The notes under the pieces: generated by a model
What the model was told of the DNA's origin: nothing
Databases searched by the model: none
Seen by the model: the letters and a program-made list of their open reading frames with translations, nothing else
Made by a program: the position numbers and the translations under genes
In this document: in pieces, positions 11,689 through 32,087 of the stretch
Numbering within the stretch: the first letter of the stretch is position 1
How the letters are laid out: each line of letters opens with the position of its first letter
DNA from: Bacteroidales bacterium
GTDB lineage: Bacteria > Bacteroidota > Bacteroidia > Bacteroidales > F082
NCBI GenBank assembly: GCA_016290215.1
Contig: JAEETH010000034.1
Location: 1 to 35,982, forward strand
Direction: 5' to 3'
DNA length: 35,982 bases

Positions 11689-11704
11689 CTTAGCGATCCC
11701 TGAG

Positions 11705-11723
11705 CCCTGAGCCTGTCGAAGGG
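11705..11723 (+). repeat. REP-like intergenic motif, copy 2
   Basis: CCCTGAGCCTGTCGAAGGG, 16 bp after the stop of the second porU-like gene. It matches the copy at 2595-2613 at 18 of 19 positions and is oriented the same way relative to transcription. Partial duplications of the motif flank it (CCCTGAG upstream, GTCGAAGGG downstream). Confidence 0.7.
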
Positions 11724-11792
11724 TCGAAGGGCCGCTTTCTCGTTGACAAATTTTTTTTTCAAGCTTATACAATAAGCCATTTGATTATTCGT

Positions 11793-11800
11793 TATTTTTG
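11793..11800 (+). promoter_or_regulatory. Candidate -7 box for porV
   Basis: TATTTTTG matches the Bacteroidota -7 consensus and lies 26 bp before the porV ATG. No good -33 element sits at the usual 19-21 nt spacing, so this may be a weak or secondary promoter. Confidence 0.35.
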
Positions 11801-11826
11801 CAATCTATAAATTTTAAAAATCGGAT

Positions 11827-18268: not shown

Positions 18269-18286
18269 ATTGATAGTTTTTCCCTG

Positions 18287-18317
18287 CAAAAATACATAAT
18301 TTGTTTAATATAGCAAA
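18287..18317 (-). promoter_or_regulatory. Promoter of the 17000-18268 ATPase gene
   Basis: On the minus strand TTTG (18317-18314), 19 nt and TATTTTTG (18294-18287) match the Bacteroidota -33/-7 consensus and spacing exactly. Transcription would start only about 10 bp before the ATG, giving a near-leaderless message. Confidence 0.75.
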
Positions 18318-18332
18318 ACAAATTTCGTTATT

Positions 18333-18355
18333 TTTGTTTATTACTACTAAACAAA
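18333..18355. promoter_or_regulatory. Inverted repeat upstream of the ATPase promoter
   Basis: TTTGTTTA and TAAACAAA are perfect 8-bp arms separated by 7 bp, starting 15 bp upstream of the -33 box. It could be an operator for a repressor or activator of this ATPase gene, or the trace of an insertion. Confidence 0.5.
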
Positions 18356-18405
18356 TTGTTTTTATGGGGAAATTGATGTCAGTTGTCGCTCCATTTCTAT
18401 AATAG

Positions 18406-18531
18406 ATGAAAAGTGCTGAAAGGCTGAACAAGTTCAAAGAAAAGTTTCATCCCGATACAATCTTCGTCGTTGGTGACGGCGGCTTGAAGGCGGAAGAATT
18501 TCTGCAAATCAATCCGTTGGAGTTGTTATAA
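18406..18531 (+). pseudogene. C-terminal remnant of a third DUF4143 ATPase
   Basis: A 41-codon plus-strand frame begins MKSAERLNKFKEKFHPDTIF and continues VVGDGGLKAEEFLQINPLEL before a TAA. The VVG-x-GG-x-x-x-EEFL-x-x-NP pattern is the typical extreme C-terminus of DUF4143-type ATPases. A TAG sits directly upstream in frame and no Walker motifs are found in the preceding 100 bp, so this is a decayed 3' end. Its last 23 bp overlap, antisense, the end of the neighbouring gene, suggesting a deletion or insertion joined the two. Confidence 0.65.
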
Positions 18532-19681
18532 GTTTCCACTCCACTGCCGTCCTCATGGCCAGCATGATAGCCTCACCCACCAAGGCCACGTCTGCAAGCA
18601 GATAATGGCTCTTGCCTCCGCTGCGCCAGGTAGTTCCCGCAAGTTCTCCCGTCTTCAGAAGTTTTTTCCTTAAAGCCCAATCCTCGAAATAGGTCACACT
18701 ACCAACGGCAAAGGCTGTTCCCGTTGGGCTAAGGTTACACACGATGGGACCCGCATCGATATCCATCCCAAGCCAACATTTTCTGTCATGGTATTCCTTG
18801 AAGCCTGTAATAGGTCGCTTCTGCAAGAAGTTTGCCTTCAGCCTCTCATATTGGTCACGGGCAAATTCCTCATCGATGAAAGTCAAGTAATAACAACTCA
18901 ACGCCGAATAGGAACCTTTGATAGGTGCTTCGCCATACATGCCTTCTCTTTCGTCAGGCAAGAACGACGCGAGCAATCCAGTGTCCTTGTCAAGCCAATG
19001 CTGTTTGGCCTCGGCAAGCCATTGGTAAACGGTTGAGTAGTACTTGCCTTCATACTGCTGAGAATAAACCGAAAGAGCTACGATGGCCACCAACATATCC
19101 GGCACATACACGCACTCGCCCGGATAAGTCGGCAGATTCATGTTGGGGCTTTCAAGGATGCGGCGGTTCATGGTCTCGCATAGCCGATGATAAAGCTCGT
19201 CGTATTTGTCGCCTCCGCCGATACGTTTGTATCCGCCAATCATCCAAGCCAAATGACTGAGATAAGAGACATGGCTCTCTTTGCCATCCAACGTTTCCAG
19301 CGGGTCTTCGCCCCATCGCTCACGGTCGTATGCCCGTAGTTCAGGCGACATGACCATCTGGATGAGGCTATCGATACGGGCAATGTTCGCTTCCCTATCC
19401 TCTTCGTATATCAACGTGGTATTCACCAACGCCGCCGACAGCATTGAGCATGAATACAACGCCCATTCCCCTTGGAACTGAGACCCGACGATGGCGGGCA
19501 TTTCATCGATAAGCTTTTGCGGGCTGGTGATCACCTTATCTATCAGAAAGTCCCGCCGCGCCATGATGTCCGCCTTCTCGCTCTCAAAGTCGCCGTTATG
19601 CCTTGTGGCAATGCCGACCCAAATGGCTTTCACCATGATAATGGCAACTATGATGGCCAAGCAGACAAGTAGGAATTTCAT
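18509..19681 (-). CDS. Membrane-anchored alpha/alpha-barrel protein, linalool dehydratase/isomerase-like
   Basis: A 390-residue protein starting at the ATG at 19681 (MKFLLVCLAIIVAIIMVKAI), a single N-terminal membrane anchor. The longer frame adds an implausible leader. The soluble part shows spaced aromatic/His helical-hairpin motifs: GKESHVSYLSHLAWMIGGYK, LPTYPGECVYVPDMLVAIVA, DKDTGLLASFLPDEREG, GSYSALSCYYLTFIDEEFA. These resemble the linalool dehydratase-isomerase (Ldi) domain group, a toroid fold found in many uncharacterised membrane-bound proteins. This family call is from memory of motif style and needs a profile search. It follows the lipoprotein gene by 65 bp on the same strand and may close that operon. 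Substrate is unknown. Confidence 0.55.
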   Translation of the reverse strand: MKFLLVCLAIIVAIIMVKAIWVGIATRHNGDFESEKADIMARRDFLIDKVITSPQKLIDEMPAIVGSQFQGEWALYSCSMLSAALVNTTLIYEEDREANIARIDSLIQMVMSPELRAYDRERWGEDPLETLDGKESHVSYLSHLAWMIGGYKRIGGGDKYDELYHRLCETMNRRILESPNMNLPTYPGECVYVPDMLVAIVALSVYSQQYEGKYYSTVYQWLAEAKQHWLDKDTGLLASFLPDEREGMYGEAPIKGSYSALSCYYLTFIDEEFARDQYERLKANFLQKRPITGFKEYHDRKCWLGMDIDAGPIVCNLSPTGTAFAVGSVTYFEDWALRKKLLKTGELAGTTWRSGGKSHYLLADVALVGEAIMLAMRTAVEWKLITTPTD

Positions 19682-19746
19682 GGGTTTCTTTTTTTGAATG
19701 CATGACAATTCATTTATTTGTTGGAAGCAAACAACACCCCGTAAAA

Positions 19747-20667
19747 TCAATAATTCTCCAAAACAACACTAAATCCCGGATAATCCAGCAATTCCTTATC
19801 AGAGCAACTATCGGACAGCAAGCAACTATCAATAAAATCATTAATTAAACCAAGCCCCTGATTTTGGTTTTTTAATTGGAGTAGTTTCGTCCTCATCGTA
19901 AGGTTTGTGCAATCATTATATATTTTGCGCATATCCTTTGGCAGAGACTTTGAAACCGTCTTGCGAAAAGCCATCCACTCGTTCCACAGTTGCCATTCGT
20001 GCTCAATAGCTTTATGATGCTCCTCCATCCCGTCTTTCTCGTTATCACTAAATGCGTTACACCAATCTTCGTCCTCCTGTTGGATATATGCCGAATAGGC
20101 ATCCTCAATCATTTTTGAAGTAAAAATTGTTTCGGGAAATTCTATGTCTTGATTTTGTTCAAATAGCCAAAGGTTATAAAAGGAAGCCGACCAAAGATCC
20201 ACACTTTGTTCCAAAACACCGACGAAATACAAAGCTCCACTGCTACCGTGGTCTTCAAGCTCAGCCACCGCCAAAACTGCTTCATGATAATTCTCCCATC
20301 TTTCTTTCTCTTCGCTGAAAAGCACCTCCTGCTCTGGATGAGCAGAGATAAATTGTTGGAACTCTTTTTCAACACGTGCTTTACGCCTTTCATAATCTGT
20401 CGAAACGATCATACCCCAGTCAGCATTACAGCCCATATCGAAGAGCATAACCCTCGCCTTATCAGCCTCCGCTTCGTCAGTCGATTCATTGAACACAGTC
20501 CAAAGAGAATCTTTACGCCTCTGAAAATCATCCCATGTTTCCTCGTGTTTTTGTCTGGGACTGGTGTCTTGAAATATTTCTTTTTCCGACTTTCTGTTGT
20601 TAGTGCATCTGAAGAGCGATGCCAGCATAAGTGTTACCAACAATGTGGCTAATCCATAATTTTTCAT
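19747..20667 (-). CDS. Hypothetical lipoprotein-like secreted protein
   Basis: A 306-residue protein starting at the ATG at 20667. Its N-terminus (MKNYGLATLLVTLMLASLFR followed by Cys) is a signal peptide with a non-canonical lipobox (LFRC). The remainder is hydrophilic, rich in Glu, Trp and Asp, and probably helical, with several Trp/Tyr-containing repeats (ERWENYHEAVLAVAE, HEWQLWNEWMAFRKTV) and cysteines near the C-terminus (DSCLLSDSCSDKELL). The spacing is slightly reminiscent of LprI/DUF1311 proteins, but I do not recognise the family. It starts 23 bp after the ADP-ribosylglycohydrolase gene, so it is very likely in the same operon. Confidence 0.7.
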   Translation of the reverse strand: MKNYGLATLLVTLMLASLFRCTNNRKSEKEIFQDTSPRQKHEETWDDFQRRKDSLWTVFNESTDEAEADKARVMLFDMGCNADWGMIVSTDYERRKARVEKEFQQFISAHPEQEVLFSEEKERWENYHEAVLAVAELEDHGSSGALYFVGVLEQSVDLWSASFYNLWLFEQNQDIEFPETIFTSKMIEDAYSAYIQQEDEDWCNAFSDNEKDGMEEHHKAIEHEWQLWNEWMAFRKTVSKSLPKDMRKIYNDCTNLTMRTKLLQLKNQNQGLGLINDFIDSCLLSDSCSDKELLDYPGFSVVLENY

Positions 20668-20690
20668 GTTTTTATATTGTTGAAAACTAT

Positions 20691-21503
20691 TTAATAAATG
20701 CACTTTGGCATCTGATATTCCGTAGCCATGGCAAACTCGGTGATGACTTTGCGGAAATGGCTGGGCAGATGATGCACGGCCTTTTTGATGATTTCTTTCG
20801 GGACACAACCGTAAAACGCTTCAGCGATACCTCCGGCAATACAGGCTTGCGTGTCGCTGTCGCCACCCAGCGAAACAGCTAGACGGATGACGGATTCAAA
20901 GTCTCCACCATCCATGAAAGCCATGATAGCTTCAGGGACGCTGCCCTCACAAGAACAATCGAAACTGTAGTCTGGGCGGATTTCTTCAATCGTGTGACCA
21001 AGGTCGTAGTGGAAGTTCTGCACGATGTAAGTCTTTATTTCCGCTTTGCTCGCATGATGGCGAGCCTTGAAAATGGCAGCCGAAACGGCTTGGGCGGCAG
21101 TAATGCCTTGCTCGCTGTCGTGCGACACCTCGGCTGAACGCTTCGCGACTTCCAAGGTCTCTTCCAAGTTATCGAAAGCCCATCCGACAGGACTGACACG
21201 CATGGCGGCTCCATTGGTGAAAGAACCGTATGGCTGAGGCTCATCGCTGTTGAGCCATGCTTTAGTGGCATGACTGAAGCCTGCACTGGGATACATCCTC
21301 CCGTATGTTTGCATGATCTTGACCAAGGTTGCGTGTTGATGCTTAGGGTCACGCATCAACCAGTCGGCTACTGCGATGGTCATCACCGTGTCGTCAGTAA
21401 ACTTGCTGCTTTTATCGAACAGCTCGAAGTCCGTAGTCTTGATTCGGCTGTTGTGGCCTTCAAATCTTGAGCCTATGATATCTCCTATGATTGATCCGAA
21501 CAT
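20691..21503 (-). CDS. ADP-ribosylglycohydrolase family protein (copy 1)
   Basis: These enzymes (DraG/ARH family) remove ADP-ribose from proteins or other acceptors using two Mg ions. The 270-residue protein carries the metal-binding N-terminal FTDDTVMTIAVADWL (about 37-51) and the C-terminal SLGGDSDTQACIAGGIAEAF (about 221-240), plus the family's starting GSIIGDIIGSRFE. All expected acidic residues are present, so it should be active. It lies 21 bp after the DUF2971 gene and 23 bp before the lipoprotein gene, inside a tight directon. A second copy is at 28852-29721, with clearly diverged sequence, so it is not a recent duplicate. Confidence 0.92.
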   Translation of the reverse strand: MFGSIIGDIIGSRFEGHNSRIKTTDFELFDKSSKFTDDTVMTIAVADWLMRDPKHQHATLVKIMQTYGRMYPSAGFSHATKAWLNSDEPQPYGSFTNGAAMRVSPVGWAFDNLEETLEVAKRSAEVSHDSEQGITAAQAVSAAIFKARHHASKAEIKTYIVQNFHYDLGHTIEEIRPDYSFDCSCEGSVPEAIMAFMDGGDFESVIRLAVSLGGDSDTQACIAGGIAEAFYGCVPKEIIKKAVHHLPSHFRKVITEFAMATEYQMPKCIY

Positions 21504-21524
21504 GATTTTTTAGTGTTGTTCATT

Positions 21525-22340
21525 TTATTCATCAGGATTAACTCTATTCAAATCAATAGGGTTTGACTCCCAAACCGTTTCTCCCCGAATTGTTAACTGA
21601 GTATTATTAAACCATGCGCCATGTTCCAAAATGGTAATATCGTTTCCTGCAACTTTTGAGATAATATCATGTTCAATTGAGGCGAAGATGGTTTGTTCAT
21701 GCCCCACACTTTCAGCATTGTGCATGGCAATAGATAAAAGAGAATCTTTAAAATCAAGTTTTTCTCTTCTTTCCGAATCTGACTTGATAATCACCCTGAG
21801 TTCTTGTTCATAAGACCAATCTTTTGTTTTATGAAAGAAATAGTCCTTTTCTTCTCTTTTTCTAAATGGTATCAAATTGTTATTGGCATCGGTTTCGTAT
21901 GTTACAACAGAAGAATAATCTTTTTTGTATTTTACTTTATCAAAAACAATATGTCGTTGTCGTTTTTCTTCGTTCAAATATGAAATGAATTTACTTTTAT
22001 CGAAAACTAAACAAACGCCATTCCCGTTTTGGGCATAATGCCCCCACATCGCTGGGATGTCAAACCCCATTCTGTTTCCATCCAAAGTCAATGAAATCTG
22101 CTGATACTTATAGAAATCTTCTTTCATCTTTTTATAGATGTCGTCATTGTTTCTATTATCATGACGCGAATGATAAAAAAAAGCCAAAGGACGATACAAC
22201 TCGTTTATGTCGTTCATGTCTTTTAACCTACCAAACAACAAAGTGTGACTTTGAAGTATCTTAAGAGCGTTGTTAAAAGTCGTATAATGATACAGTTTTT
22301 CCGTATTATTGAATTGATTTCTAATGTCTTCTATTTCCAT
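21525..22340 (-). CDS. DUF2971 domain protein
   Basis: A 271-residue cytoplasmic protein with the DUF2971 hallmarks: KLYHYTTFNNALKILQSHTL then LFGRLKDMNDINELY near the N-terminus, and DIPAMWGHYAQNGNGVCLVF in the middle, followed by basic and aromatic motifs (KTKDWSYEQELRVIIKSD). The function of DUF2971 is unknown. The H-Y-T-T, N-D-x-x-E and E-L-R-V signature spacing resembles ADP-ribosyltransferase-like folds, which would fit the adjacent ADP-ribosylglycohydrolase; that link is inference. It lies 10 bp after the methyltransferase/LRR gene and 21 bp before the glycohydrolase gene. It is AT-richer than the core genes of the window. Confidence 0.85.
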   Translation of the reverse strand: MEIEDIRNQFNNTEKLYHYTTFNNALKILQSHTLLFGRLKDMNDINELYRPLAFFYHSRHDNRNNDDIYKKMKEDFYKYQQISLTLDGNRMGFDIPAMWGHYAQNGNGVCLVFDKSKFISYLNEEKRQRHIVFDKVKYKKDYSSVVTYETDANNNLIPFRKREEKDYFFHKTKDWSYEQELRVIIKSDSERREKLDFKDSLLSIAMHNAESVGHEQTIFASIEHDIISKVAGNDITILEHGAWFNNTQLTIRGETVWESNPIDLNRVNPDE

Positions 22341-22350
22341 GGCATTTTAT

Positions 22351-24999
22351 TTATTGTTCTACAAGTTTATCCCACAATACTTCTTCAAGCAATTCTTTGA
22401 ATTTTTCAATAGTTCCTTTAGGAATAATGATTTTATGCAAAGTGTCTCTTCTATGAGGAAAAGATTGCGGGTTACGATTATGTTGACCCAATATTATAGG
22501 CAACTCGTCTTCATCTCGAAAATGGAATTTAAATTTACTATCTTCAACATAAGATTCCACTACAACTCTTTTCGTCTCTCCGCATCGAAAAGCGTTTTCT
22601 CCAATAGAATAAACTGTTTCGGGCAACACAACTTCTCTCAATCCGCAGTCTCTGAAAGCATCTTCACCTATAGATATAGCACCGTAGGGAACAATGACTT
22701 TTCTTAAAGATTTGCAATCAATAAAAGCACCTTTTTTTATATTTTTTACAGCTGATATTTCAACATTTTGCAACGATTGGCAACTACGAAAAGCATATTC
22801 TCCTATTACACTAATTGTTTCTGGGAATGATATTTGTCGTAAGGAAGAACACCAATCAAATGCATTATCGGGAATAGTTGAAACAATCTCAACAATATCT
22901 TTATATTGTTCAGTAATAATAACCTGTTGCAATAAAGAGCAATGCTGAAAATGTCCCTTATTCTTGGAGATTACCATATCAGGTATTACAACCTGCACTA
23001 ATGATGAACTTTCAAACACATGATCGCCAAAACTATATACTGAATTAGGAATTACAATTTGTTTCAAACCACAATGTGAAAAAGCCTCTCCTCCGATGGA
23101 TTCCAAAGCATCAGGAAGAACGACCTGCTCTAGAGAAGTGCACCATGAAAAAGCCCTATGCCCAATAAATGTCAAAGTTTTAGGGAAAACAACATTTTGC
23201 AAATTAGAACATTCATAAAAAGCCCCATCTCCAATAGATGATAGGGATTGGGGCATTTTAACAAATTGTAACGATGTACACCATGAAAAAGTCTCATCTT
23301 CAATACGAGTAATCGTATCAGGAAGGATTACTTGTTGCAAAGAAAAGCATGATGAGAATACGCCCTCTCCTATATTACTAACAGAATTTGGAATAAGGAC
23401 TCGTTTCAGTTGTTTTCCGCAAAACGCATAACCGCCAATGCTTTTGATGTGTTTTGGAATACTAATGCTTTCTGAATCACCAAAGTATGAAATCAAACGA
23501 TTTTCTTTTATGTCAATTAACATCTCATCTTTAACAATAAATCTTGAAGATTGACTTGAAATATTGATGTCTTTACAACCATCAAATGGATTATCACCGA
23601 TAATGTTGATGGTATTGGGAATTGTGATCTGTTTTACTGGACTCCCAGCAAAAGCCTTATAACCTATATTTGTTATTGTGTTAGGTAAAGTGATCGATTC
23701 TGCACTTCCAAAATAACAAATAAGGCGATTCTCTTGCTCGTCTATTAACATTTCGTCCTTAACGATGAATCTATTTGAATCACTTTTTATTACGACTTGT
23801 GGACACTTGGCAAAAGGATTACCTCCAATATAACGCACAGTTTGTGGGATATATACTGTTTTTATGTTATAACAATCTTCAAAAGCGCCATCCTCAATTG
23901 AAAGAATACTATTAGGAATATTAAAGCCACAACTTTGGGATCGAAAAGCATACCTTCCAATGATTTTCACCGAATCGGGAATGCCCGTGTTTGTTTCCCA
24001 TAGGTAATGCTTTATTGCTCTACAACATAGCACTCTGGTCCCAGGCAAAATAGTATGATCAAAATCTGTTAGTTTTAGCAAACGGCCTTCATTATTATAC
24101 ATATGGCCAGCAGGACCATCTACTTCTTCTGCCAAATTCAAGTCTTCATTGGTCATTTTTGTCGACCAATTCATCAGTGTCCCCAAAGAGAACACACTGG
24201 TAGAGCAAGTCCAATCCTTATCAGCATTCAATTTCCTTTTTTCCAACGATTCGTATGAATAATCATTACAAAACAAAGATGAGAAGCAACGGATTTTATT
24301 GACTTTTTCGCCGTTATGGAATGATGGACCAGTACAAACAAATTGATTATAGTGTTTTGCCCTTCCTAGTATGAGTTTTGCCAATCGTTTCATATCAAAA
24401 GAATCCATATCCAACACGTTGGAAAAAATATGTAGTTTTGGTACGAACTCATTTTCCTCTATTTCACGACGCATATAAAGTCCATCAAGCCATTCGTTAC
24501 AAGCAATATCATGTTCGTTTAAATCATTAAATCTTTTATTAATTGTTATAATCTTAGCTTCTGGAAAGAATACTGATGCATGGAGTGCGGCTCTCTTTAA
24601 ACAAATTTCGGAAGGATCAATCAAAGTGATTGAATTCACCTTTTGCCAGTAATTGTTTTTGTTTAGGAAATCTATATAGCACATTGTTCCCAAGGCTTGC
24701 CCGCAGCCGTAATCAATGATATTGATTTCGGGTTGCACAAGAAACTCTTTAGGCAATTGCTTAAAAGCATAGTTTAACTTGGCTTGGTGCATCTTGCCGA
24801 AAGCAAACAAGTAGGCGGTCATTTGTGGCTCGGAGTCCAAAATGTCAATGCCACGGTTCAAGGCTTCAAAGAGTTCGTCCTGCAAGGCTTGTGGCAGTTC
24901 GCGGTAGAATTTGGTGGACAAGTCCCTTACTTTGTCGAAAGTGGGATTGTCCATGTATTTCAGTTTGTAGGCGTAGTTAGTATTTTGTTCTATCATCAT
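22351..24999 (-). CDS. Methyltransferase-like domain fused to BspA-type leucine-rich repeats
   Basis: An 882-residue protein without a signal peptide. Residues about 20-300 look like a class I SAM-dependent methyltransferase: motif I is EINIIDYGCGQALGTM (about 91-106), the acidic end of beta-2 is SITLIDPSEICLKRAA, and FVCTGPSFHNGEK follows further on. From about 335 to 865 run some 17 LRR_5/BspA repeats of about 23 residues (such as SIEDGAFEDCYNIKTVYIPQ and SIGDGAFYECSNLQNVVFP). BspA repeats normally occur in secreted adhesins. A cytoplasmic form joined to a methyltransferase suggests a target-recognition or sensing array. It lies 13 bp after the YhcG-type nuclease and 10 bp before DUF2971. 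Base composition is AT-rich compared with the flanking core genes. Confidence 0.82.
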   Translation of the reverse strand: MMIEQNTNYAYKLKYMDNPTFDKVRDLSTKFYRELPQALQDELFEALNRGIDILDSEPQMTAYLFAFGKMHQAKLNYAFKQLPKEFLVQPEINIIDYGCGQALGTMCYIDFLNKNNYWQKVNSITLIDPSEICLKRAALHASVFFPEAKIITINKRFNDLNEHDIACNEWLDGLYMRREIEENEFVPKLHIFSNVLDMDSFDMKRLAKLILGRAKHYNQFVCTGPSFHNGEKVNKIRCFSSLFCNDYSYESLEKRKLNADKDWTCSTSVFSLGTLMNWSTKMTNEDLNLAEEVDGPAGHMYNNEGRLLKLTDFDHTILPGTRVLCCRAIKHYLWETNTGIPDSVKIIGRYAFRSQSCGFNIPNSILSIEDGAFEDCYNIKTVYIPQTVRYIGGNPFAKCPQVVIKSDSNRFIVKDEMLIDEQENRLICYFGSAESITLPNTITNIGYKAFAGSPVKQITIPNTINIIGDNPFDGCKDINISSQSSRFIVKDEMLIDIKENRLISYFGDSESISIPKHIKSIGGYAFCGKQLKRVLIPNSVSNIGEGVFSSCFSLQQVILPDTITRIEDETFSWCTSLQFVKMPQSLSSIGDGAFYECSNLQNVVFPKTLTFIGHRAFSWCTSLEQVVLPDALESIGGEAFSHCGLKQIVIPNSVYSFGDHVFESSSLVQVVIPDMVISKNKGHFQHCSLLQQVIITEQYKDIVEIVSTIPDNAFDWCSSLRQISFPETISVIGEYAFRSCQSLQNVEISAVKNIKKGAFIDCKSLRKVIVPYGAISIGEDAFRDCGLREVVLPETVYSIGENAFRCGETKRVVVESYVEDSKFKFHFRDEDELPIILGQHNRNPQSFPHRRDTLHKIIIPKGTIEKFKELLEEVLWDKLVEQ

Positions 25000-25012
25000 A
25001 GTAGTTTCTCTT

Positions 25013-26218
25013 TTACAGCAATTTCTTCAATTCCTCAATATCGGGCAAGGCTTTCCGCAGTTCCTCTGGCATTTCGGCTGTGGTTTTGTATGTGGCCACG
25101 CCCATGGGCTTGTTGTAGTCACGGATGACAAACTCCACATAATCACGTTTGGCCGATTTGCACAACACTATGCCAATGGACGAGTTTTCGTGCGGCTTCT
25201 TCACTTTGGCGTCCAAGATGGAAAGATACGACATCAGTTGCCCGAGGTAAGATGACTTGAAGTCGCCCGTCTTCAGTTCCACTACCACCAAGGCGTTCAG
25301 TTCGCGGTTGAAAAACAACAGGTCGGGAAAATGCTCCACACCATACACCTCCAAATGGTATTGGTTCCCGATAAACGCAAAATCGTTCCCAAAAGTCATG
25401 ATGAAATTCTTGACATTTTGGACAATCTGCTGCTCCACCTCGCGTTCGTCCACATCGATGGACTCGCGCTCGCCAATCTGCTCCACATTGATGAAATCCA
25501 GCAAATACTCATCCTTGAACATCATCACCGCTTTGCGGGCAAGTTTCGCATCAGGAAGCGTGTTTGTAAAGTTGCTCGGCATTGTATTTCTGCGCTCGTA
25601 GGCATTCTCTTTGAGTAGAGATTGTAATGCCTCCACCGACAAATTCTCTTCTGCCGTGCGGTGAATGTAGTAGCAGCGAGCCTCCATTGTTTTAGCACCA
25701 GCCAAAATGCGCGAGTGATGGGTAAAAGGCACCTTGAAAAAATCTTCCGCAGGGAAGGCAATCGCATCGGGAATGTACAAGGAATGATAAATATCAATCT
25801 TGTTATCAACTACTTGTAATTCATCCGTCGTAACCGATGAATTAGATTCTTCCAAATCGCCAATTGTGATTGGCGATTTATTATCCGTCTGATTATTAGC
25901 CTGTTGTAATTCGCCAATTGCAATTGGCGAATTGGCATCCAGCATCGCCCATTCCTCATAAAATTGTCGCATGTTTTTCATGCTTGATGGGGCAAAACCA
26001 CGCAACCCAGGCAATTCTTTCCGAAGTTGCTGGCTAATGACTTCCAATGCGCCTGTTCCCCAAACGCCTTTCCGCGTGTTGAGCGAGATGTATTTTCCGA
26101 TGCCAAAATAAACCGCTAATTGTATACGGTTCACGCCTTTGGCTGCTTCGTATTGTCCTTGCAAAATGGCTGTCTTGATAGTCTCTACTGCCTTGTTGTA
26201 TGTCGCAGGTTGGTTCAT
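25013..26218 (-). CDS. YhcG-type PD-(D/E)XK nuclease (DUF1016)
   Basis: A 401-residue protein of the DUF1016 family. The N-terminal helical DUF1016_N domain (about 5-100) contains LAVYFGIGKYISLNTRKGVW and FAPSSMKNMRQFYEEW. The C-terminal nuclease domain has LEVYGVEHFPDLLFFNRELN then ALVVVELKTGDFKSSYLGQL, giving the D...E-x-K catalytic pattern, followed by VLCKSAKRDYVEFVI. DUF1016 proteins often sit near restriction-modification and defence genes. The linker between the domains is extended by imperfect repeats (SPIAIGELQQ, SPITIGDLEE, SSVTTDELQ) encoded by DNA palindromes. Adjacent genes lie 13 and 29 bp away on the same strand. Confidence 0.9.
   Translation of the reverse strand: MNQPATYNKAVETIKTAILQGQYEAAKGVNRIQLAVYFGIGKYISLNTRKGVWGTGALEVISQQLRKELPGLRGFAPSSMKNMRQFYEEWAMLDANSPIAIGELQQANNQTDNKSPITIGDLEESNSSVTTDELQVVDNKIDIYHSLYIPDAIAFPAEDFFKVPFTHHSRILAGAKTMEARCYYIHRTAEENLSVEALQSLLKENAYERRNTMPSNFTNTLPDAKLARKAVMMFKDEYLLDFINVEQIGERESIDVDEREVEQQIVQNVKNFIMTFGNDFAFIGNQYHLEVYGVEHFPDLLFFNRELNALVVVELKTGDFKSSYLGQLMSYLSILDAKVKKPHENSSIGIVLCKSAKRDYVEFVIRDYNKPMGVATYKTTAEMPEELRKALPDIEELKKLL
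25817..25933. repeat. Three palindromes inserted in frame in the DUF1016 gene
   Basis: Palindromes lie at 25817-25844 (arms TAATTCATC and GATGAATTA), 25854-25879 (arms AATCGCCAAT and ATTGGCGATT) and 25908-25933 (arms AATTCGCCAATTG and CAATTGGCGAATT). The last two share the CGCCAATTG core. All are in frame and translate to a repeated peptide in the interdomain linker. Confidence 0.8.
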
Positions 26219-26247
26219 GTGCCTTGTTTTTGATGTGCAAATATAGA

Positions 26248-27270
26248 TTATTTTCCCGTTATTGTTTCTCCCAAAGGATTCATTTTGTGTTTATTATAGC
26301 TCTCATGCGCTTTTTCCTTACTCGCATTAGCATAGCAATATTCACACAAATGCGGACAAGTATTGTACTCGCCGATGTCCTTACTCACCATGCAGCCGCA
26401 GAACTGCCGCTGGCCTTTGTCGCGGTTGTCGCGGTGCTTGATGATGGACGGTTTTGGATTGAAGAGGTCGCCTTCGGTAATCTCCACACCGAGGAATTCC
26501 ATCAAGGCCTTGTCGTGGTGAGCAAAACGAATCATCAAGTCATCATCCACGCAGCGGTTGTGCTGGATGCCGTATTGCTCAATGTCAATCTTTTCGCCAC
26601 AGGTGGCCAATTGGTAATGCCATTTTTGGTTGAGTTCGGAAAGCTTTTGGGCAAACTCTTCCATTTGGGCGGTCGTCCATTCCGCATAGTTTACATGGCT
26701 TTTCTCAAGGTTGGCTTTCACCTTTTTATATAAGGTGATGTCTGCATAGCTGAAAACGAGTTTTTCCGTGTAACCCTTCAGTTGGTCGCCGATGTTTTCC
26801 ACTTTACGCAAAAGGTCGTCCATGCCGATTTGGTCGGTCAGAATCAAAGGATCGAAGCGCCAAATCACACGGCCTTGGCCCAACTTGTCCACCAACCTTT
26901 TGAAGGTGTCAATCCTTTGCTCTAAGGGTGGCACACCCTTTTCCAAGCCTTCTTTCTCGTAGTCGTTCAGCGTGTATTGGATGTAGCAGCCGATGTTCCT
27001 TTCCTTCAGTTTGTCTAAATGCTCAAGCAGCGGCTTCGGGTTCTTCGACCAAAACACGATGAAGCGGCATTTTTCGTATGAAACGAAACTCCTCACGCCA
27101 TTGAAGGGATTGGTCCAGGCAGAATAGCCCACCTTCAGCCGATGGAAGAACCAGTCGGCATAGAAAGCGGGAATGTCCGTGCTTCGGCTTGCGGAGATGA
27201 TGACGGGGGCTTGCGCCTCGGTCATCATGCCGTTATCTCGCTGAATTTGTGTCTTTTGCCATTGGGTCAT
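26248..27270 (-). CDS. DUF1848 domain protein with C-terminal Cys cluster
   Basis: A 340-residue protein matching DUF1848: VIISASRSTDIPAFYADWFF near the N-terminus, RFIVFWSKNPKPLLEHLDKL, GCYIQYTLNDYEKEG and GRVIWRFDPLILTDQIG. Near the C-terminus it has CGCMVSKDIGEYNTCPHLC then EYCYANA, so the CPHLCEYC segment is a CxxxCxxC cluster identical in pattern to radical-SAM iron-sulfur motifs, although at the opposite end from normal. Function unknown; a metal-cluster enzyme is plausible. Translation may start at the given ATG or at Met15/16, because family homology begins around residue 22. It lies 29 bp before the nuclease gene and 34 bp after the ATPase gene. Confidence 0.82.
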   Translation of the reverse strand: MTQWQKTQIQRDNGMMTEAQAPVIISASRSTDIPAFYADWFFHRLKVGYSAWTNPFNGVRSFVSYEKCRFIVFWSKNPKPLLEHLDKLKERNIGCYIQYTLNDYEKEGLEKGVPPLEQRIDTFKRLVDKLGQGRVIWRFDPLILTDQIGMDDLLRKVENIGDQLKGYTEKLVFSYADITLYKKVKANLEKSHVNYAEWTTAQMEEFAQKLSELNQKWHYQLATCGEKIDIEQYGIQHNRCVDDDLMIRFAHHDKALMEFLGVEITEGDLFNPKPSIIKHRDNRDKGQRQFCGCMVSKDIGEYNTCPHLCEYCYANASKEKAHESYNKHKMNPLGETITGK

Positions 27271-27304
27271 ATCGCAATTCTTGTTGTTTTGCAGTAGTTG
27301 TGTG

Positions 27305-28654
27305 TTAGAGAAACATGGTCATAAACGCAGGTACCATACAGATGTCATTGTCCTTCTGCAAGTCTTTTGTGTAAACAAGGTAGCTTTGTCCGATTCGACC
27401 GGAAAATTTGGCCTTGAATGCATCAAGCGAGGCATGGGTTTTGTATCCGGATGATTTTACTTCGACGGGATAGATTTTGTTTCCGTGCGAAAGGATGAAG
27501 TCGATTTCGTAATTGTGTTTTCCGCTTTCGGTTGGCCAAGTGTGGTAGAACAAACGATTGCCTGCTGCCGTAAGCATCTGAGCAACCAAGTTCTCGTATA
27601 CGTAACCCAGGTCGGCTGAAAGCTTGTCGGTCAGCAGTTTTTGATAAATGACGTTTTCGGTAACCGCTTTGTCCCAAAAGGCCAATGTGATGAATAGACC
27701 AGTGTCGCCTACGAACATTTTGTATTGGCTGTAGTCAGTGTGCATGGGCATCCCTACATTGGGGTCGTCTGCATGGTGGGAGAAGTTGACCGTCAGACTG
27801 TCTTCCAAATTCTGTAGCAATTCGTCCATGTTGTCTTTGCCTTCGCTCCGTCCGAGCACACTGGTTGTCTGATAACGAGAAGCGTTTTTCGAGAGTTGAG
27901 CAGGGATGGCGCTGAACAGCCGTGCGGTTTTGCCCGACGAGTCTATCTTTTGGAAATCGTCGTTGTAAAGTTCGATGATCTCGCGTTTCTTTGCATCCAC
28001 CTCGGCCAAGTTGTTGGTGTTGAGGTAAGTTTCTACAGCTTGAGGCATACCACCTATGAGCATGTACAATCTCAAGTCGCGTAACAGTTTGCGGGTCAAT
28101 GCATCGCCAAGGGAACGCTTGTTTTCAAAAGAGGCCTTGAGCAGAGGTAGGGTAGTGGTGTCACCCAAGGCCCACCGAAATTCCTCATAGTCCATGGGAT
28201 ACATGGTCAGCCTCGTCTCTTCGCTGGGAATCACGATGTCCTTCGTGTTTTTCTTGATGGAGAGCAACGAGCCGGTTTCTATAAAATCATAACGGTGGTC
28301 TTTTACCAGATACTTGATGGCCTGTCTCACCGCAGGACATTTCTGTATTTCGTCGAAGATAATTACTGAATGCCGCTCGTGCAAGGTCACGTCATAGATG
28401 AACTGAAGTTGCATAAAGAAGTTGTCGCGGTCAGAGATGTTGCCCACGGCTTCCCAAACGGCAGCAGGGGCGTCGGCGAAGTCAACAACGATATAACTTT
28501 CATATTCATTGCGAGCAAATTCCTCTGCAATGGTTGACTTTCCCACTCGTCTTGCTCCTTTGATAAGCAAGGCTGTGGCACCGTCTCTGCTTTGCTTCCA
28601 TTCGAGCATCTTATCGTAAATCTTGCGTTTGAAAACCTTGTAATTTGTTTCCAT
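27305..28654 (-). CDS. AAA-family ATPase with C-terminal DUF4143 (copy 2)
   Basis: A 449-residue ATPase starting at the ATG at 28654 (METNYKVFKRKIYDKMLEWK). A GTG 18 bp upstream is possible but less likely. Walker A is LIKGARRVGKSTIAEEF (about 28-44), Walker B VIIFDEIQKC (about 100), and the sensor strand RYDFIETGSLLSI. The DUF4143 half carries GDTGLFITLAFW and NYEIDFILSHGNKIYPVEVK, where the E-x-D...E-V-K residues form a nuclease-like core. It is diverged from the copy at 17000-18268. As first gene behind the tandem-repeat promoter, it leads a tight minus-strand run (ATPase, DUF1848, DUF1016 nuclease, methyltransferase-LRR, DUF2971, ADP-ribosylglycohydrolase, lipoprotein). Confidence 0.88.
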   Translation of the reverse strand: METNYKVFKRKIYDKMLEWKQSRDGATALLIKGARRVGKSTIAEEFARNEYESYIVVDFADAPAAVWEAVGNISDRDNFFMQLQFIYDVTLHERHSVIIFDEIQKCPAVRQAIKYLVKDHRYDFIETGSLLSIKKNTKDIVIPSEETRLTMYPMDYEEFRWALGDTTTLPLLKASFENKRSLGDALTRKLLRDLRLYMLIGGMPQAVETYLNTNNLAEVDAKKREIIELYNDDFQKIDSSGKTARLFSAIPAQLSKNASRYQTTSVLGRSEGKDNMDELLQNLEDSLTVNFSHHADDPNVGMPMHTDYSQYKMFVGDTGLFITLAFWDKAVTENVIYQKLLTDKLSADLGYVYENLVAQMLTAAGNRLFYHTWPTESGKHNYEIDFILSHGNKIYPVEVKSSGYKTHASLDAFKAKFSGRIGQSYLVYTKDLQKDNDICMVPAFMTMFL

Positions 28655-28685
28655 TTTCCTCAAAATTTTCACCTTGTTTCAGCCG

Positions 28686-28716
28686 CAAAATTACTATTTT
28701 TGTCGGAATCTCACAA
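28686..28716 (-). promoter_or_regulatory. Promoter of the accessory operon
   Basis: On the minus strand TTG (28716-28714), a 20-nt gap and TAATTTTG (28693-28686) fit the Bacteroidota promoter consensus. The start codon at 28654 follows after about 31 bp. The -33 element lies inside the gene-proximal copy of the 33-bp tandem repeat. Confidence 0.65.
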
Positions 28717-28786
28717 TTTTTTCAGCGAAATCTGTATGGAATCTCACAATTTTTTCAGCGAAATATGTATGGAATCTCACAATTTT
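28705..28786. repeat. 33-bp tandem repeat, 2.5 copies, in the operon promoter
   Basis: Units at 28705-28737 and 28738-28770 differ at one base, and a third, truncated unit (first 16 bp) runs 28771-28786. The unit begins GGAATCTCACAATTTT and ends GCGAAATCTGTAT or GCGAAATATGTAT. Being 33 bp long, it keeps an open reading frame on the minus strand, but no start codon precedes it. There are no spacers, so it is not a CRISPR array. Confidence 0.85.
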
Positions 28787-28802
28787 AGGAATGCTTACGA
28801 TT

Positions 28803-28838
28803 CAAAAAAGCCGAGAAAAGTCCCCACTTTTCTCGGCT
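28803..28838 (-). terminator. Rho-independent terminator of ADP-ribosylglycohydrolase copy 2
   Basis: AGCCGAGAAAAGT (28809-28821) pairs perfectly with ACTTTTCTCGGCT (28826-28838) around CCCC. On the minus strand it is followed by TTTTTT. It lies 14 bp after the copy-2 stop and separates that gene from the ATPase operon. Confidence 0.9.
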
Positions 28839-28851
28839 CGGTTCACAATCT

Positions 28852-29721
28852 TTATAATGTTTCTCCCTGTTTTAGAATTTCCGGCAGGCGGTAGCTTGTC
28901 CGTGACTCCATCTTCCTCAATATGTCCTTGAAATCTTCGGGAATGAGTCCCCAAATCTTCAAGGCGATGTCGTCCGGAATCTCCTTGTAGAACGCCTCCG
29001 CGATGCCGCCCGTGATGCAGGCGAGGGTGTCGCTGTCGCCGCCCAACGAGACCGCCAATCGGATGGCCGACTCGAAGTCGGTGCTGTCGAAGAAGGCTAC
29101 CATGGCTTCGGGTACCGTACCTTGGCACGAGGAATCCCAGTCGTAAACGGGACGGATCTCGTCGCAAGTTCGGTTCAGGTTGTAGCCGTATTTTGTTGAG
29201 ATGTATTCCCTTATCTCTTCCTTGCTCTTGCCATTGCGGGCCATGAAGATGGCTGCCGCCGTCGATTGCGCCCCTTTGATGCCTTCGGGATGGCTGTGGG
29301 TGATGGCGGCTGAAAGTCCAGCAACGCGTTCGGTTTCTTCTAAATTGTCGAACATCCAACCGTTGGCGCTGCAACGCATGGCGGCGCCATTGCCGAACGA
29401 GTTGTAGGGATGGCGTGTCCCCGGTTTGAAGTCGCGACTCCCATAGTCACCTAGTTCTTCGGGATGAAACAGCCAGAGATGGAATCCGCCGCCATAGCCG
29501 CCCATAGGGCAGGGGTACTTCTTGGCGAAATTGAGAAACGAGGCTTCCAAGGTGTCCATGCCGTGCTGCGGGTCGGTCAAGAGCCAGTCGGCCACGGCCA
29601 TGCTCATGATGCTGTCGTCGGTGTAGTTGTTCCGAGGCCCAAACAGCGGAAAGTCAGTGGTCTTTATGTTGTGAAATTCATATACCGAACCAACGGTATC
29701 TCCTATAATTGCTCCTAACAT
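28852..29721 (-). CDS. ADP-ribosylglycohydrolase family protein (copy 2)
   Basis: A 289-residue DraG/ARH-type hydrolase that would remove ADP-ribose from modified targets. It begins MLGAIIGDTVGSVYEFHNIK and has the metal-binding motifs NYTDDSIMSMAVADWLL (about 32-48) and SLGGDSDTLACITGGIAEAF (about 233-252). Compared with copy 1 (20691-21503) it has an extra segment (CPMGGYGGGFHLWLFHPEEL) and is typical of the longer Bacteroidota form. It lies 141 bp downstream of the vWA gene, with a nested palindromic element in between, and ends at its own strong terminator. All expected acidic residues are present. Confidence 0.92.
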   Translation of the reverse strand: MLGAIIGDTVGSVYEFHNIKTTDFPLFGPRNNYTDDSIMSMAVADWLLTDPQHGMDTLEASFLNFAKKYPCPMGGYGGGFHLWLFHPEELGDYGSRDFKPGTRHPYNSFGNGAAMRCSANGWMFDNLEETERVAGLSAAITHSHPEGIKGAQSTAAAIFMARNGKSKEEIREYISTKYGYNLNRTCDEIRPVYDWDSSCQGTVPEAMVAFFDSTDFESAIRLAVSLGGDSDTLACITGGIAEAFYKEIPDDIALKIWGLIPEDFKDILRKMESRTSYRLPEILKQGETL

Positions 29722-29770
29722 GGTGTCTAAGTGTTGATTGTTTAATTGTTTAATTGTTGGGCCGATGGCT

Positions 29771-29861
29771 TATGGCCTATAGCCTATGGCCAGCTTCACC
29801 CAAGGCGTGAAAACAGAGCCTTTGGATGAAGCGGGTCATGAGCCATCAGCCATAGGCCATA
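29771..29861. repeat. Nested palindromic element between vWA gene and ADP-ribosylglycohydrolase
   Basis: Outer arms 29771-29790 (TATGGCCTATAGCCTATGGC) and 29842-29861 match as an inverted repeat at about 17 of 20 positions. Inner arms 29793-29806 (GCTTCACCCAAGGC) and 29818-29832 (GCCTTTGGATGAAGC) pair almost perfectly. The element abuts the vWA stop codon. It could fold into a long hairpin and act as a terminator or be a miniature mobile element. Confidence 0.75.
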
Positions 29862-29862
29862 G

Positions 29863-30960
29863 TTACACCAGCTCCTTCCAAAAATCCATCGGCAAATGGA
29901 TGTTCGGCACGTTGACGGCTCCCGCAAACAAAGGTGCAATCTCCTTGGGTGTGAAGCCTGCGATGCCACAGCCTATCTTGGTGACGAGGAAGGTCAGCTC
30001 AGGATGCATGTCAGCGAAACGTATGAACTCCTCCACGTAGGGCAGGATGGTCTCTGTGCCACCTTGCATCGTCGGGATGGCGTAGCTCTGTCCTTGCAGG
30101 CCAACGCCTTGACCCATGATGGCTCCGAAGTTCAAACGGGCAATTCGAGCTGCTCCGCCAGCATGGGCACCGGCGAGGTTGCTGCCGAAGACGAATATCT
30201 CGTTGTTCTTCAGGACTTTGATATACTCAGGCGTGATGCGGTCGCTGAACTCGCTCATCTCGTGGTAGTTCTTGGAGGAGCGGTTTCCCATGCTGCGGTA
30301 GGCCTTGCGTTCTGCACTTGTCATGGCCGAGGTGGCGCCGAAGTCCATGGAGAAGCGCGAGAACATCGACATCTTGGACTTGCGTTCTTTTTCCCAGGCT
30401 TCTGTCATGCCAGCCTCGTCGTCGCGGAATTCCATGTGGTTGTCGATGCTGAGCGAGGCGGAGGTGGCTCTCACGTCTTGGTTGGTGCCGATGTAGGCGA
30501 AGTTCCAGCCTTCCTCGTTTTTCATGCGCTCGACGAGGGCCTTGATAGCTTGGCCACTGTATTCTTTCGAGGCGTTTTCCAAGCCGTCGGTGATGACGGT
30601 CACCACGGCGGTGGCGTCTTCCTTGTCCTTGATGGCCCTGTATAAGGCGTTGATGCTGATGCCCATGGCGTCGTAGAGTGGTGTGCAGCAGCAGGGACGG
30701 TATTCCTTGGAAGTCAGCTCTTTGACCTTGTCGACGGGCACCATGTCGTACACCATGGTCTTCTCGCAGTCGCAGAAGATCATCAGTGAGACGAAATGCT
30801 CTTGCGTGTCCTTGAAGCGTTCTTGGGCTGAACGGATGCCGCCCACGGTTTCGTTGAATCCGGCGATGGCTGCGTTGGCGATGCTGCTCATCGAGCCGCT
30901 CTTGTCGAGGATAATCAGGTTATAGACCTGCGTCTTTGCGGTGGTGGTGTTGTTTTCCAT
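29863..30960 (-). CDS. vWA-domain protein with C-terminal macro-like (A1S_2505-type) module
   Basis: A 365-residue protein starting at the ATG at 30960 (MENNTTTAKTQVYNLIILDK). A longer frame runs back into a palindromic repeat and is rejected. Residues about 12-200 form a von Willebrand A domain with an intact metal site: D19-K-S21-G-S23, the Thr in CCTPLYDAMG and the Asp in VITDGLENAS. Residues about 252-365 (NEIFVFGSNLAGAHAGGAAR, FGAIMGQGVGLQGQSYAIPT, LVTKIGCGIAGFTPKEIAPL) match a phage-associated domain I know as A1S_2505-type, whose glycine loops resemble macro domains that bind ADP-ribose. The nucleotide role is inference. It follows the Nudix regulator gene by 173 bp. Confidence 0.78.
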   Translation of the reverse strand: MENNTTTAKTQVYNLIILDKSGSMSSIANAAIAGFNETVGGIRSAQERFKDTQEHFVSLMIFCDCEKTMVYDMVPVDKVKELTSKEYRPCCCTPLYDAMGISINALYRAIKDKEDATAVVTVITDGLENASKEYSGQAIKALVERMKNEEGWNFAYIGTNQDVRATSASLSIDNHMEFRDDEAGMTEAWEKERKSKMSMFSRFSMDFGATSAMTSAERKAYRSMGNRSSKNYHEMSEFSDRITPEYIKVLKNNEIFVFGSNLAGAHAGGAARIARLNFGAIMGQGVGLQGQSYAIPTMQGGTETILPYVEEFIRFADMHPELTFLVTKIGCGIAGFTPKEIAPLFAGAVNVPNIHLPMDFWKELV

Positions 30961-31007
30961 ATCTTTTATTGTTTTTAGTGGTTTATATTTTATGAATTTA
31001 TGATTGA

Positions 31008-31134
31008 GATTCCCTGCGGGAATGGAGCTCTTTTGTCTTTTTATCTGCGGCGGCTTGTGGGATTTGCGCTCGGCAAGCATTATTTGCCGCCGCAGAAGTA
31101 ACGCTATTACCGACTTCCATTCCCGAAGGGAATC
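31008..31134. repeat. Nested palindromic (MITE-like) element
   Basis: Outer arms 31008-31026 (GATTCCCTGCGGGAATGGA) and 31116-31134 (TCCATTCCCGAAGGGAATC) are inverted, and each is itself a small palindrome. Inner arms TCTGCGGCGGC (31044-31054) and GCCGCCGCAGA (31086-31096) pair perfectly. The element fills most of the 173-bp gap between the Nudix regulator and vWA genes, and its right end touches the regulator's stop codon. Confidence 0.8.
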
Positions 31135-31940
31135 TAAAACTCAAGCCTAAAATTATTGTCTTCCTTAAGTTGGTCATAGCGTTTCTTGTTGAACGAGAAG
31201 CGAGTGCCTTTGCGGCGGCGGCTGTCGTCGTCCGAACGGGCAGCGGAGTAGGAGGGACGTGATTCGGCAGCGATGCTCCCAAACAAGGCCCCGATGTCCA
31301 TGCTGCGCATCTCGCGATGCTCTCCATAATAATGCCTGTCATCGTCGTCTTCCACCTCGTCGAGGATGCCGGTCTGCAAGATTTTCTTGTAGAAATTGCG
31401 GCGGTCGAACTGCACGCCGAGGATGGCTTCATAGAGGCGTTGCAGCTCTGGGATAGTAAACTGCTCGTCCAAAAGTCCAAAGCCGATGGGCTCGAAGTGG
31501 ATGTCCTTGCGCAACCTCTCCATCGTCTTCCTTAGGATATAGTCGTGGTCGAAAGCCAATCGCGGCACTTCATTCAGGGCGAACCATTGCGCTTTGGCGG
31601 CATCGTCGCCACCTTGCACCTCCGATTTCTTTGCCAAGGCATAGAAAGCAATGGTGATGACGCGGGAGCGAGGGTCGCGGTCGACGTCGGAGAATGCCCC
31701 AACTTGCTTGATATAGCGCAAGTCAAGTCCCGTTTCTTCCTTCAGTTCCCTCAGTGCACCTTGCTCTGCCGTCTCGTCCATGTTGAGGAATCCGCCAGGG
31801 AAGGCCCAAGCGCCTTTGAAGGGCTCAATTCCGCGCTCGATAAGTAAAATCTTAAGGTCGTGCCCGTCAAAACCGAAGACCACACAGTCCGTCGTCACAG
31901 CCGGTCGAGGATACTTGTAGGTGTATTGTTGCGTTTCCAT
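31134..31940 (-). CDS. NrtR-like Nudix regulator/hydrolase
   Basis: A 268-residue protein with an N-terminal Nudix domain (about 14-150) and a C-terminal winged-helix domain (FTIPELQRLYEAILGVQFDR then RNFYKKILQ, about 172-205), the layout of NrtR transcription factors that sense ADP-ribose and control NAD metabolism. Unusually, the Nudix box is complete (G-x5-E-x7-RELKEETGL), so it may still hydrolyse ADP-ribose-type substrates. A charged tail of about 60 residues follows (acidic EVEDDDDRHYY, then basic DDDSRRRKGTRFSFNKKR). It begins a run with the vWA gene and ADP-ribosylglycohydrolase copy 2. Three copies of a 15-bp palindrome upstream make autoregulation likely. Confidence 0.88.
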   Translation of the reverse strand: METQQYTYKYPRPAVTTDCVVFGFDGHDLKILLIERGIEPFKGAWAFPGGFLNMDETAEQGALRELKEETGLDLRYIKQVGAFSDVDRDPRSRVITIAFYALAKKSEVQGGDDAAKAQWFALNEVPRLAFDHDYILRKTMERLRKDIHFEPIGFGLLDEQFTIPELQRLYEAILGVQFDRRNFYKKILQTGILDEVEDDDDRHYYGEHREMRSMDIGALFGSIAAESRPSYSAARSDDDSRRRKGTRFSFNKKRYDQLKEDNNFRLEF

Positions 31941-31943
31941 ATC

Positions 31944-31958
31944 GTGTAAATTTTACGC
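31944..31958 (-). promoter_or_regulatory. Operator copy 1 (NrtR-type palindrome)
   Basis: The plus strand reads GTGTAAATTTTACGC, nearly self-complementary with one mismatched pair. It overlaps the end of the -7 box and lies 3 bp before the start codon, so a bound repressor would block transcription. Confidence 0.65.
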
Positions 31959-31987
31959 AAAAATACAACTATTTCTGTAACCCGCAA
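31958..31987 (-). promoter_or_regulatory. Promoter of the Nudix regulator gene
   Basis: On the minus strand TTG (31987-31985), 19 nt and TATTTTTG (31965-31958) match the Bacteroidota promoter. It sits between operator copies 1 and 2. Confidence 0.65.
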
Positions 31988-31996: not shown

Positions 31997-32011
31997 GTGT
32001 AAAATTTACAC
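31997..32011 (-). promoter_or_regulatory. Operator copy 2 (perfect palindrome)
   Basis: GTGTAAAATTTACAC has perfect 7-bp arms around a central A and lies 9 bp upstream of the -33 element. It is the best copy of the three. Confidence 0.7.
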
Positions 32012-32050: not shown

Positions 32051-32087
32051 TTGTTTATAATGTGTAATTTTTACGCATTATAAACAA
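32051..32087 (-). terminator. Long AT-rich hairpin with operator copy 3 in its centre
   Basis: TTGTTTATAATG (32051-32062) and CATTATAAACAA (32076-32087) are perfect 12-bp arms. Between and overlapping them at 32062-32076 is GTGTAATTTTTACGC, a third version of the operator palindrome. The hairpin starts 2 bp after the antiporter stop codon on the minus strand and is followed by TTAAAAACC, so it may be a weak terminator, an extended operator, or both. Confidence 0.6.

Follow-up and report, generated by a model that had tools for sequence, protein, structure and literature searches.

A recurrent Bacteroidales cassette of an NrtR-type regulator, a vWA–A1S_2505 fusion and an ADP-ribosylglycohydrolase as a candidate self-repressed ADP-ribose-processing operon

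The window analyzed here is a stretch of 35,982 nucleotides that makes up one contig (JAEETH010000034.1, C90) of the Bacteroidales bacterium assembly GCA_016290215.1 (3.80 Mb, 153 contigs, 85% complete). It carries on its minus strand a recurrent unit of three co-directional genes, which encode a Nudix-NrtR regulator, a fusion of a vWA domain with an A1S_2505 module, and an ADP-ribosylglycohydrolase (ARH), termed ARH2. The three-gene unit probably senses and removes ADP-ribose tags, and on balance, with modest confidence, it is read as a dedicated, self-repressed ADP-ribose-processing operon. The ADP-ribose theme and its regulation are well supported for these three genes by recurrent linkage, domain fusions, a predicted macro-type fold and a dedicated candidate operator.

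The first gene of the cassette (31134..31940, minus strand, as are all features of the cassette) encodes a protein with a Nudix domain and an NrtR winged helix, both matched over cut-off by their Pfam models (PF00293 and PF21906). The second encodes the vWA–A1S_2505 fusion (29863..30960), a protein of 365 residues counted from the likely start methionine at 30960, in a frame that is open to 31080. Its vWA domain (30307..30942) is matched by phrog_7371 and by eye shows the MIDAS residues DxSxS, T and D. The A1S_2505 module (29875..30240), predicted to take on a macro fold, is matched by NF049995 with an E-value of 1.6e-41. The third gene encodes ARH2 (28852..29721; PF03747, E 1.7e-34), in which the family match is accompanied by the active-site motifs TDD, GNGxxMR, THxHPEG and GGDxDT.

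A search of genome contigs with the fusion as query yielded 24 loci, 20 of them with the fusion (L060-L079), and together with four further genomes and the window a set of 25 fusion loci was obtained. The 20 loci are all titled Bacteroidales or Bacteroidia, and many of the relatives bear rumen or gut names. Upstream sequence is available for 24 of these loci, and in 23 of them a co-directional NrtR gene immediately precedes the fusion. Downstream sequence is likewise available for 24, and an ARH gene immediately follows the fusion in 17. Several of the loci counted are near-duplicates and thus not independent events. The exception upstream is L087, where two genes, one of them an ARH, stand between NrtR and the fusion. 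Near-identical loci (e.g., L076 and L084) were kept in the neighborhood, Nudix-box and operator counts; copies contained in larger stretches (L001-L003, L033-L037, L041, L042, and L044) were left out of one comparison. The genes commonly run porin, antiporter, NrtR, fusion, and ARH, and in several loci a PNPase and a sigma factor are found as well. ARH2 is 87 to 94% identical to 12 of 16 other cassette ARHs and 68 to 83% identical to the remaining four.

The regulator gene is preceded by three palindromes that follow the pattern GYGTAAAWWTTACRC with at most one mismatch. The 3.8-Mb assembly, which is 85% complete, has no further such site; a reversed control pattern gave three matches elsewhere in the same assembly. 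The NrtR winged helix, too, is found once in the assembly. The first base of the candidate operator O1 (GCGTAAAATTTACAC, 31944..31958) is the final one of the -7 box, so that O1 overlaps the predicted transcript start. O2 (GTGTAAATTTTACAC, 31997..32011) is located 53 bp from O1 and just upstream of the -33 element, and O3 (GCGTAAAAATTACAC, 32062..32076) follows 65 bp from O2. The promoter predicted from the sequence, TTG-N19-TATTTTTG (31958..31987), fits the Bacteroidetes -33/-7 consensus. An operator that runs into the promoter is in the classical position for a repressor. As the operators of the assembly are confined to the regulator's own promoter, the regulon is probably the cassette operon alone.

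The same arrangement is found in relatives. A looser form, GYGT-N7-ACRC, occurs 69 times in 36 upstream stretches (counted without L055, which is the same place as L120), compared to a mean of 0.4 in 200 dinucleotide shuffles. At least one site is present in 29 of the 36 stretches and at least two in 26, and the inner pair is spaced by 52 to 53 bp in 22 of these 26. A promoter of the form TTG-N18-21-TAnnTTTG leads into the inner palindrome in 21 of the 36. The seven stretches that are devoid of a GYGT-N7-ACRC site belong mostly to distant regulators; for L074, the gene start was probably placed too far upstream. With a looser pattern (GYGTNWWWWTTACRC) applied to 25 genomes, matches cluster in groups of at least two upstream of NrtR genes in G000, G297, G489, G409, G431, and G471, and further pairs were seen at G506:C5 and G424:C40.

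The regulator stays under the NCBIfam equivalog cut-off for NrtR (128.7 versus 400 bits). Its best relative in the PDB is AraR (E 1.1e-45), followed by the MutT/Nudix protein 2fml and, in third place, by 3gz5, an NrtR of Shewanella. Similarity by itself does not allow the ligand to be inferred; ADP-ribose is described as the ligand that releases NrtR (PMC4666351, PMC11535050). The Nudix box, given as GX5EX7REUXEEXGU in PMC4666351, is intact in the window's regulator and in 28 of 36 regulator rows (duplicates and L055 included), whereas the same source describes it as impaired in the NAD-type NrtR and in AraR. The Nudix and winged-helix architecture and the palindromic operator at the own promoter, here predicted, are shared with the NrtR of NAD metabolism. 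The differences are the intact box and an operator at the own cassette alone, with no site at NAD synthesis or salvage genes anywhere in the 85%-complete assembly. AraR/XylR of Bacteroides, assigned to the NrtR family in PMC4666351, come from the same phylum and share the architecture, but AraR differs in its genomic context and in its impaired Nudix motif.

These comparisons bear on the possibility that the cassette is an ordinary regulon of NAD or sugar metabolism, as with many NrtR relatives. AraR as the best solved relative would fit such a regulon, and so would the commonness of the NrtR winged helix, which is found in 124 of 295 genomes of the order. Such a regulon is nevertheless quite improbable, given that the operator sites of the assembly lie at the cassette operon alone, that the cassette contains neither a sugar nor an NAD-synthesis gene, and that the Nudix box, described as impaired in AraR and in regulators of the NAD type (PMC4666351), is kept here.

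The module that may link the fusion to ADP-ribose is A1S_2505. A model of the full-length protein listed mainly vWA-type matches, and the module was thus folded alone with AlphaFold2 from 66 sequences, giving a pLDDT of 95.3. The best 50 matches listed by Foldseek against the PDB are mostly macrodomains, with 2fg1, 1spv, 2dx6, and the designed 4gvw and 4k0c as entries whose titles do not say so. The entries of TARG1/C6orf130 and Poa1p reach Foldseek probabilities of 0.93 to 0.99 and query TM-scores of 0.53 to 0.64. A profile of 94 A1S sequences matches a macro profile of 42 sequences, which was built up from a divergent member of PF01661, with 96.2% probability (P 2.5e-9, 88 columns), and eight unrelated control families remain at or below 0.4%. 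Against a 17-sequence, mostly MacroD-type profile the probability is just 26 to 34%, and with both macro sets combined it is 95.9%. A phmmer search with the whole fusion protein gave one weak unrelated match. By fold and profile comparison, the A1S_2505 module is predicted to be a divergent macro-type domain.

In its predicted fold and co-linear conserved loops, the module resembles macrodomains of the TARG1, Poa1p, and DarG types; in contrast to these, it is compact at about 120 residues and is missed by the Pfam macro model. In Erwinia phage Fifi051, the gene that matches A1S_2505 (gp73, L278) was independently annotated as “macro domain Poa1p family,” and that of Pseudomonas phage LIT1 (L279) is named “N4 gp14-like,” a phage protein tabulated as ‘Unknown’ in PMC2784036. 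A macro-type fold of A1S_2505 thus gives a first functional lead for N4 gp14-like proteins, and this widespread phage family gains a suggested role as a macro-type ADP-ribose domain. The domain is the same in the phage genes and in the cassette (NF049995); it mostly stands alone in the viral contigs examined, whereas here it is fused to vWA behind NrtR. In further loci it forms single polypeptides with an ARH (L089 and L090) or with a Nudix domain (L107).

The association of A1S_2505 with ARHs extends beyond the fusion. In the order sample (295 genomes), an ARH lies within 3 kb at no fewer than 13 of 52 A1S_2505 places, compared to 0.08 expected by chance under uniform placement, and at no fewer than 9 of 47 when the places with the vWA–A1S fusion are removed. 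These figures were counted by hand, with each of three tandem A1S pairs represented by one copy; the vWA positions of the fusion rows are approximate, and five of the seven vWA–A1S pairs are the fusions themselves. The linked ARHs of G411 and G507 contain a stop codon, and the copy in G400 is partial. At 39 of the 52 places, there is no ARH within 3 kb among the matches listed, and most A1S and vWA places are without partners. NrtR linkage was read from neighborhoods, for which 40 of about 80 places were fetched, and NrtR is also found beside A1S, vWA or ARH in further arrangements.

The full fusion itself is distributed patchily. It is present in five genomes of the order sample and in the window's own genome only in both the class sample (295 genomes) and the phylum sample (395 genomes). 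Within the genus, vWA/A1S matches are found in the own genome and in G489, and none in G391 and G573 (each 99% complete); presence in two of four genomes marks the unit as accessory. Some cassettes are mosaics. In L064, L065, L066, L068, L070, and L079, the regulator is 70 to 75% and the fusion 83 to 90% identical to the window's, and in L085 the values are 91% and 79%, respectively. Such unequal identities point to an exchange of parts.

Phage-type copies tie the cassette to phages but do not tell which side benefits. Of 367 viral contigs with A1S, the best 80 were examined; the domain stands alone in 66 of these, with vWA in six, and with NrtR in two. ARH, NrtR/Nudix, vWA, and A1S occur together in four (L124, L129, L130, and L131), one pairs A1S with a weak match to an ARH, and the last, L134, carries the vWA–A1S fusion behind a full NrtR. 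L134 is a 58-kb viral contig that bears a large terminase (PF03237, E 7.1e-16; Terminase_3, E 1.5e-26; PHROG), and its NrtR is preceded by two operators 52 bp apart in the promoter arrangement of the window. Six of seven viral records are without a match to the PF03237 model; that of L131 contains a gene for a tail tape-measure protein and a weak match to a terminase. The Nudix proteins of L124 and L131 (145 to 148 residues) lack the winged helix, and no operator was found in L124, L126, L127, and L129-L131. Among 50,697 phage records, there are 569 with a match to either half of the fusion and none with a match to 80% of it. Six stretches from the phage collection are without the cassette, and five of them contain one gene kind alone. 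The short record MT837245.1 (L290) has an ARH with a weak regulator-like match 2.3 kb away; its DNA match was rejected as a regulator, as the match falls in an ARH. In LR756504.1, a 636-kb uncultured phage that includes L292, an NrtR-like gene at about 290 kb and an A1S gene at about 392 kb lie about 100 kb apart. A1S is fused to a further part in L124 (5275-6363) and L131 (5305-6363), the latter with a weak sigma-factor match, and such prophage-type sigma-like/A1S fusions suggest that A1S may act as a sensor in some phages.

With related versions in phage-like DNA, the unit may act as shield or weapon in the conflict between bacteria and phages. It could be phage counter-defence cargo that helps phages and prophages by clearing NAD-derived signals or ADP-ribose marks made by host defences, in which case the chromosomal copy would be a domesticated relic or a traveler between phage and host. 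The terminase-bearing contig with NrtR, fusion and operator pair would agree with this, as would the four viral contigs with all parts, one with a tape-measure gene, and the many phage records that match either half of the fusion. It is nonetheless unlikely, since the window's copy occupies a recurrent chromosomal place beside an antiporter gene, and in several relatives a PNPase gene, and the six phage-collection stretches examined are devoid of the cassette.

The closest published idea is found in section 3.8 of PMC9503650, in which predicted ADP-ribosylglycohydrolase (ARG)-centric systems with Nudix-HTH (helix-turn-helix) regulators, vWA proteins, and macro domains would undo viral ADP-ribosylation. 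A Nudix- or WYL-HTH regulator is reported there for over 42% of systems, and a vWA protein or other predicted chaperone is optional. That section names actinobacteria, planctomycetes, and proteobacteria, and ‘Bacteroid’ does not occur in the main text. The cassette is a Bacteroidales variant of these predicted counter-ADP-ribosylation systems. Common to both are the ADP-ribosylglycohydrolase, the Nudix-HTH regulator, the vWA protein, a macro domain in some of the systems, and no coupled transferase (PMC9503650). The cassette differs in that vWA and a macro-type module are joined in one protein, in its defined candidate operator, and in its viral copies. An earlier description of the cassette was not found in an open-licence library, and overlap with figure 7 or the supplements of PMC9503650 is possible. 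A published prediction thereby becomes a testable case: three genes whose candidate promoter and operator have been mapped, with a phage-type copy to compare them with.

A narrower version of the ADP-ribose operon reading follows from this template: the operon would serve host defence by undoing the ADP-ribosylation of host molecules by a phage transferase. The match in ARG, Nudix-HTH regulator, vWA, and macro-type domain (PMC9503650) speaks for it, together with the patchy presence even in the genus and the lack of a transferase model in the Pfam scan of the window (20 proteins, with smaller open reading frames and the first 2.6 kb left out). However, the phosphatase that accompanies slightly more than 55% of the systems in PMC9503650 is missing from the scanned proteins, and the viral copies suggest that the cassette is not purely a host weapon. 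Host defence is possible, if somewhat doubtful. A broader proposal is put forward as a tentative one, less likely than not. In it, A1S_2505, including the N4 gp14-like proteins, would be an undescribed macro subfamily that reads or removes ADP-ribose, and with vWA, ARH, and a Nudix repressor released by ADP-ribose would form a transferable, inducible module for de-ADP-ribosylation that passes between Bacteroidales chromosomes and their phages.

In the self-repressed ADP-ribose-processing operon, the NrtR-type protein would bind the palindromes flanking and overlapping the promoter of its own gene and thereby keep NrtR, the vWA-macro fusion, and ARH2 at a low level. The trigger may be a rise of ADP-ribose or a close derivative during the ADP-ribosylation of proteins or nucleic acids and its removal, or upon NAD cleavage. 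Binding of this ligand to the Nudix domain would lift the repression and switch the operon on. Subsequently, ARH2 and probably also the macro-type module would strip or bind ADP-ribose on the targets, while the vWA domain may hold or recruit the modified substrate. The Nudix domain, with its box kept, may then hydrolyze the freed ADP-ribose and turn the system off again, so that the repressor may destroy its own inducer.

Several observations weigh against this reading. Intergenic gaps of 173 bp (between NrtR and the likely start of the fusion) and 141 bp (between the fusion and ARH2) leave room for further promoters, and seven of 24 fusion loci have no ARH directly downstream. Among solved structures, the regulator is closest to the arabinose-responsive AraR, and the ligand could thus be a sugar. 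With an assembly that is 85% complete, further operator sites may lie in the missing parts. In 25 genomes, the looser pattern GYGTNWWWWTTACRC gave 53 strand matches versus 41 for the reversed control (hand sums), with none in 8 of the 25; single matches are thus background, and clusters at NrtR genes alone are informative. For the A1S module, the Foldseek E-values are weak (best 0.013, none at or below 0.001), PF01661 yields no match, and a sequence search of the PDB with the A1S alignment returned no macrodomain and one weak unrelated match.

The initial annotation of this DNA had proposed a wider set of two diverged ADP-ribosylglycohydrolases, a vWA protein ending in a macro-like module, a Nudix protein with a DNA-binding domain, and a DUF2971 protein. 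All five genes were recovered. The PF03747 matches at 20691-21503 (ARH1, minus strand, E 1.6e-36) and 28852-29721 (ARH2) are the sole two ADP-ribosylglycohydrolases of this family found in the assembly and are 51% identical. In ARH1, a motif scan did not find GNGxxMR despite the family match. The end of the vWA protein is A1S_2505 by NF049995 and macro-like by fold and profile, the Nudix and NrtR winged-helix domains lie at 31134-31940, and Pfam places DUF2971 at 21525-22340 (minus strand). The remark that no NAD-synthesis gene is present agrees with the 20 scanned proteins.

The claim that these five genes form one set fared differently in its two parts. In the neighborhoods, NrtR, vWA–A1S, and ARH2 are recurrently linked, and ARH1 and DUF2971 are not. 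Likewise, the proposed regulated ADP-ribosylation response keeps its theme and regulation for three of the five genes, and phage or NAD stress, the suggested trigger, may be what sets it off. The co-directional genes and mostly small gaps of the window would suit one response of all five. However, relatives of ARH1 and DUF2971 are absent from the DNA fetched around other fusion cassettes, and the operator scan of the assembly found no site near either gene. DUF2971 relatives occur in 10 of the 295 order genomes, the own included, and in the nine others no ARH lies within about 1.5 kb on either side (one locus per genome, with two further G561 fragments outside the scan). The five genes were thus rejected as a single system by operator scan, neighborhoods, and DUF2971 loci, and one common response is extremely improbable.

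From the absence of ARH1 and DUF2971 relatives around the other cassettes and of an ARH beside the nine other DUF2971 loci, the stretch at 17 to 28.7 kb is best read as variable cargo outside the three-gene unit. By neighborhood comparison, the cargo at 20691..28672 (minus strand) comprises ARH1, DUF2971, the leucine-rich-repeat protein, YhcG, DUF1848, and DUF4143. Relatives of DUF1848, DUF4143, YhcG, or the leucine-rich-repeat protein are found near some cassettes (L061, L067, L077, L080, L085, and L087). The minus-strand order in the window, from right to left, is porin, Na/H antiporter, Nudix-NrtR, vWA–A1S_2505, ARH2, DUF4143 ATPase, and DUF1848, followed by YhcG nuclease, leucine-rich-repeat protein, DUF2971, ARH1, two unannotated proteins, a second DUF4143 ATPase, and PNPase.

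The region 17000-28672, which holds the two DUF4143 ATPases, YhcG, DUF2971, and DUF1848, has a lower GC content (34-48% over most of it). The DUF4143, YhcG, and DUF2971 families are single-gene candidates in PADLOC (PDC-S01, S02, and S31, respectively). The leucine-rich-repeat protein at 22351-24999 is of the BspA type; Pfam finds no domain in its N-terminal third, in which a methyltransferase-like glycine motif is visible by eye. A type IX secretion cluster lies at the other end of the window (4433-13008) and consists of two C25-family peptidases, which match secretion-tail models weakly, and PorV after them.

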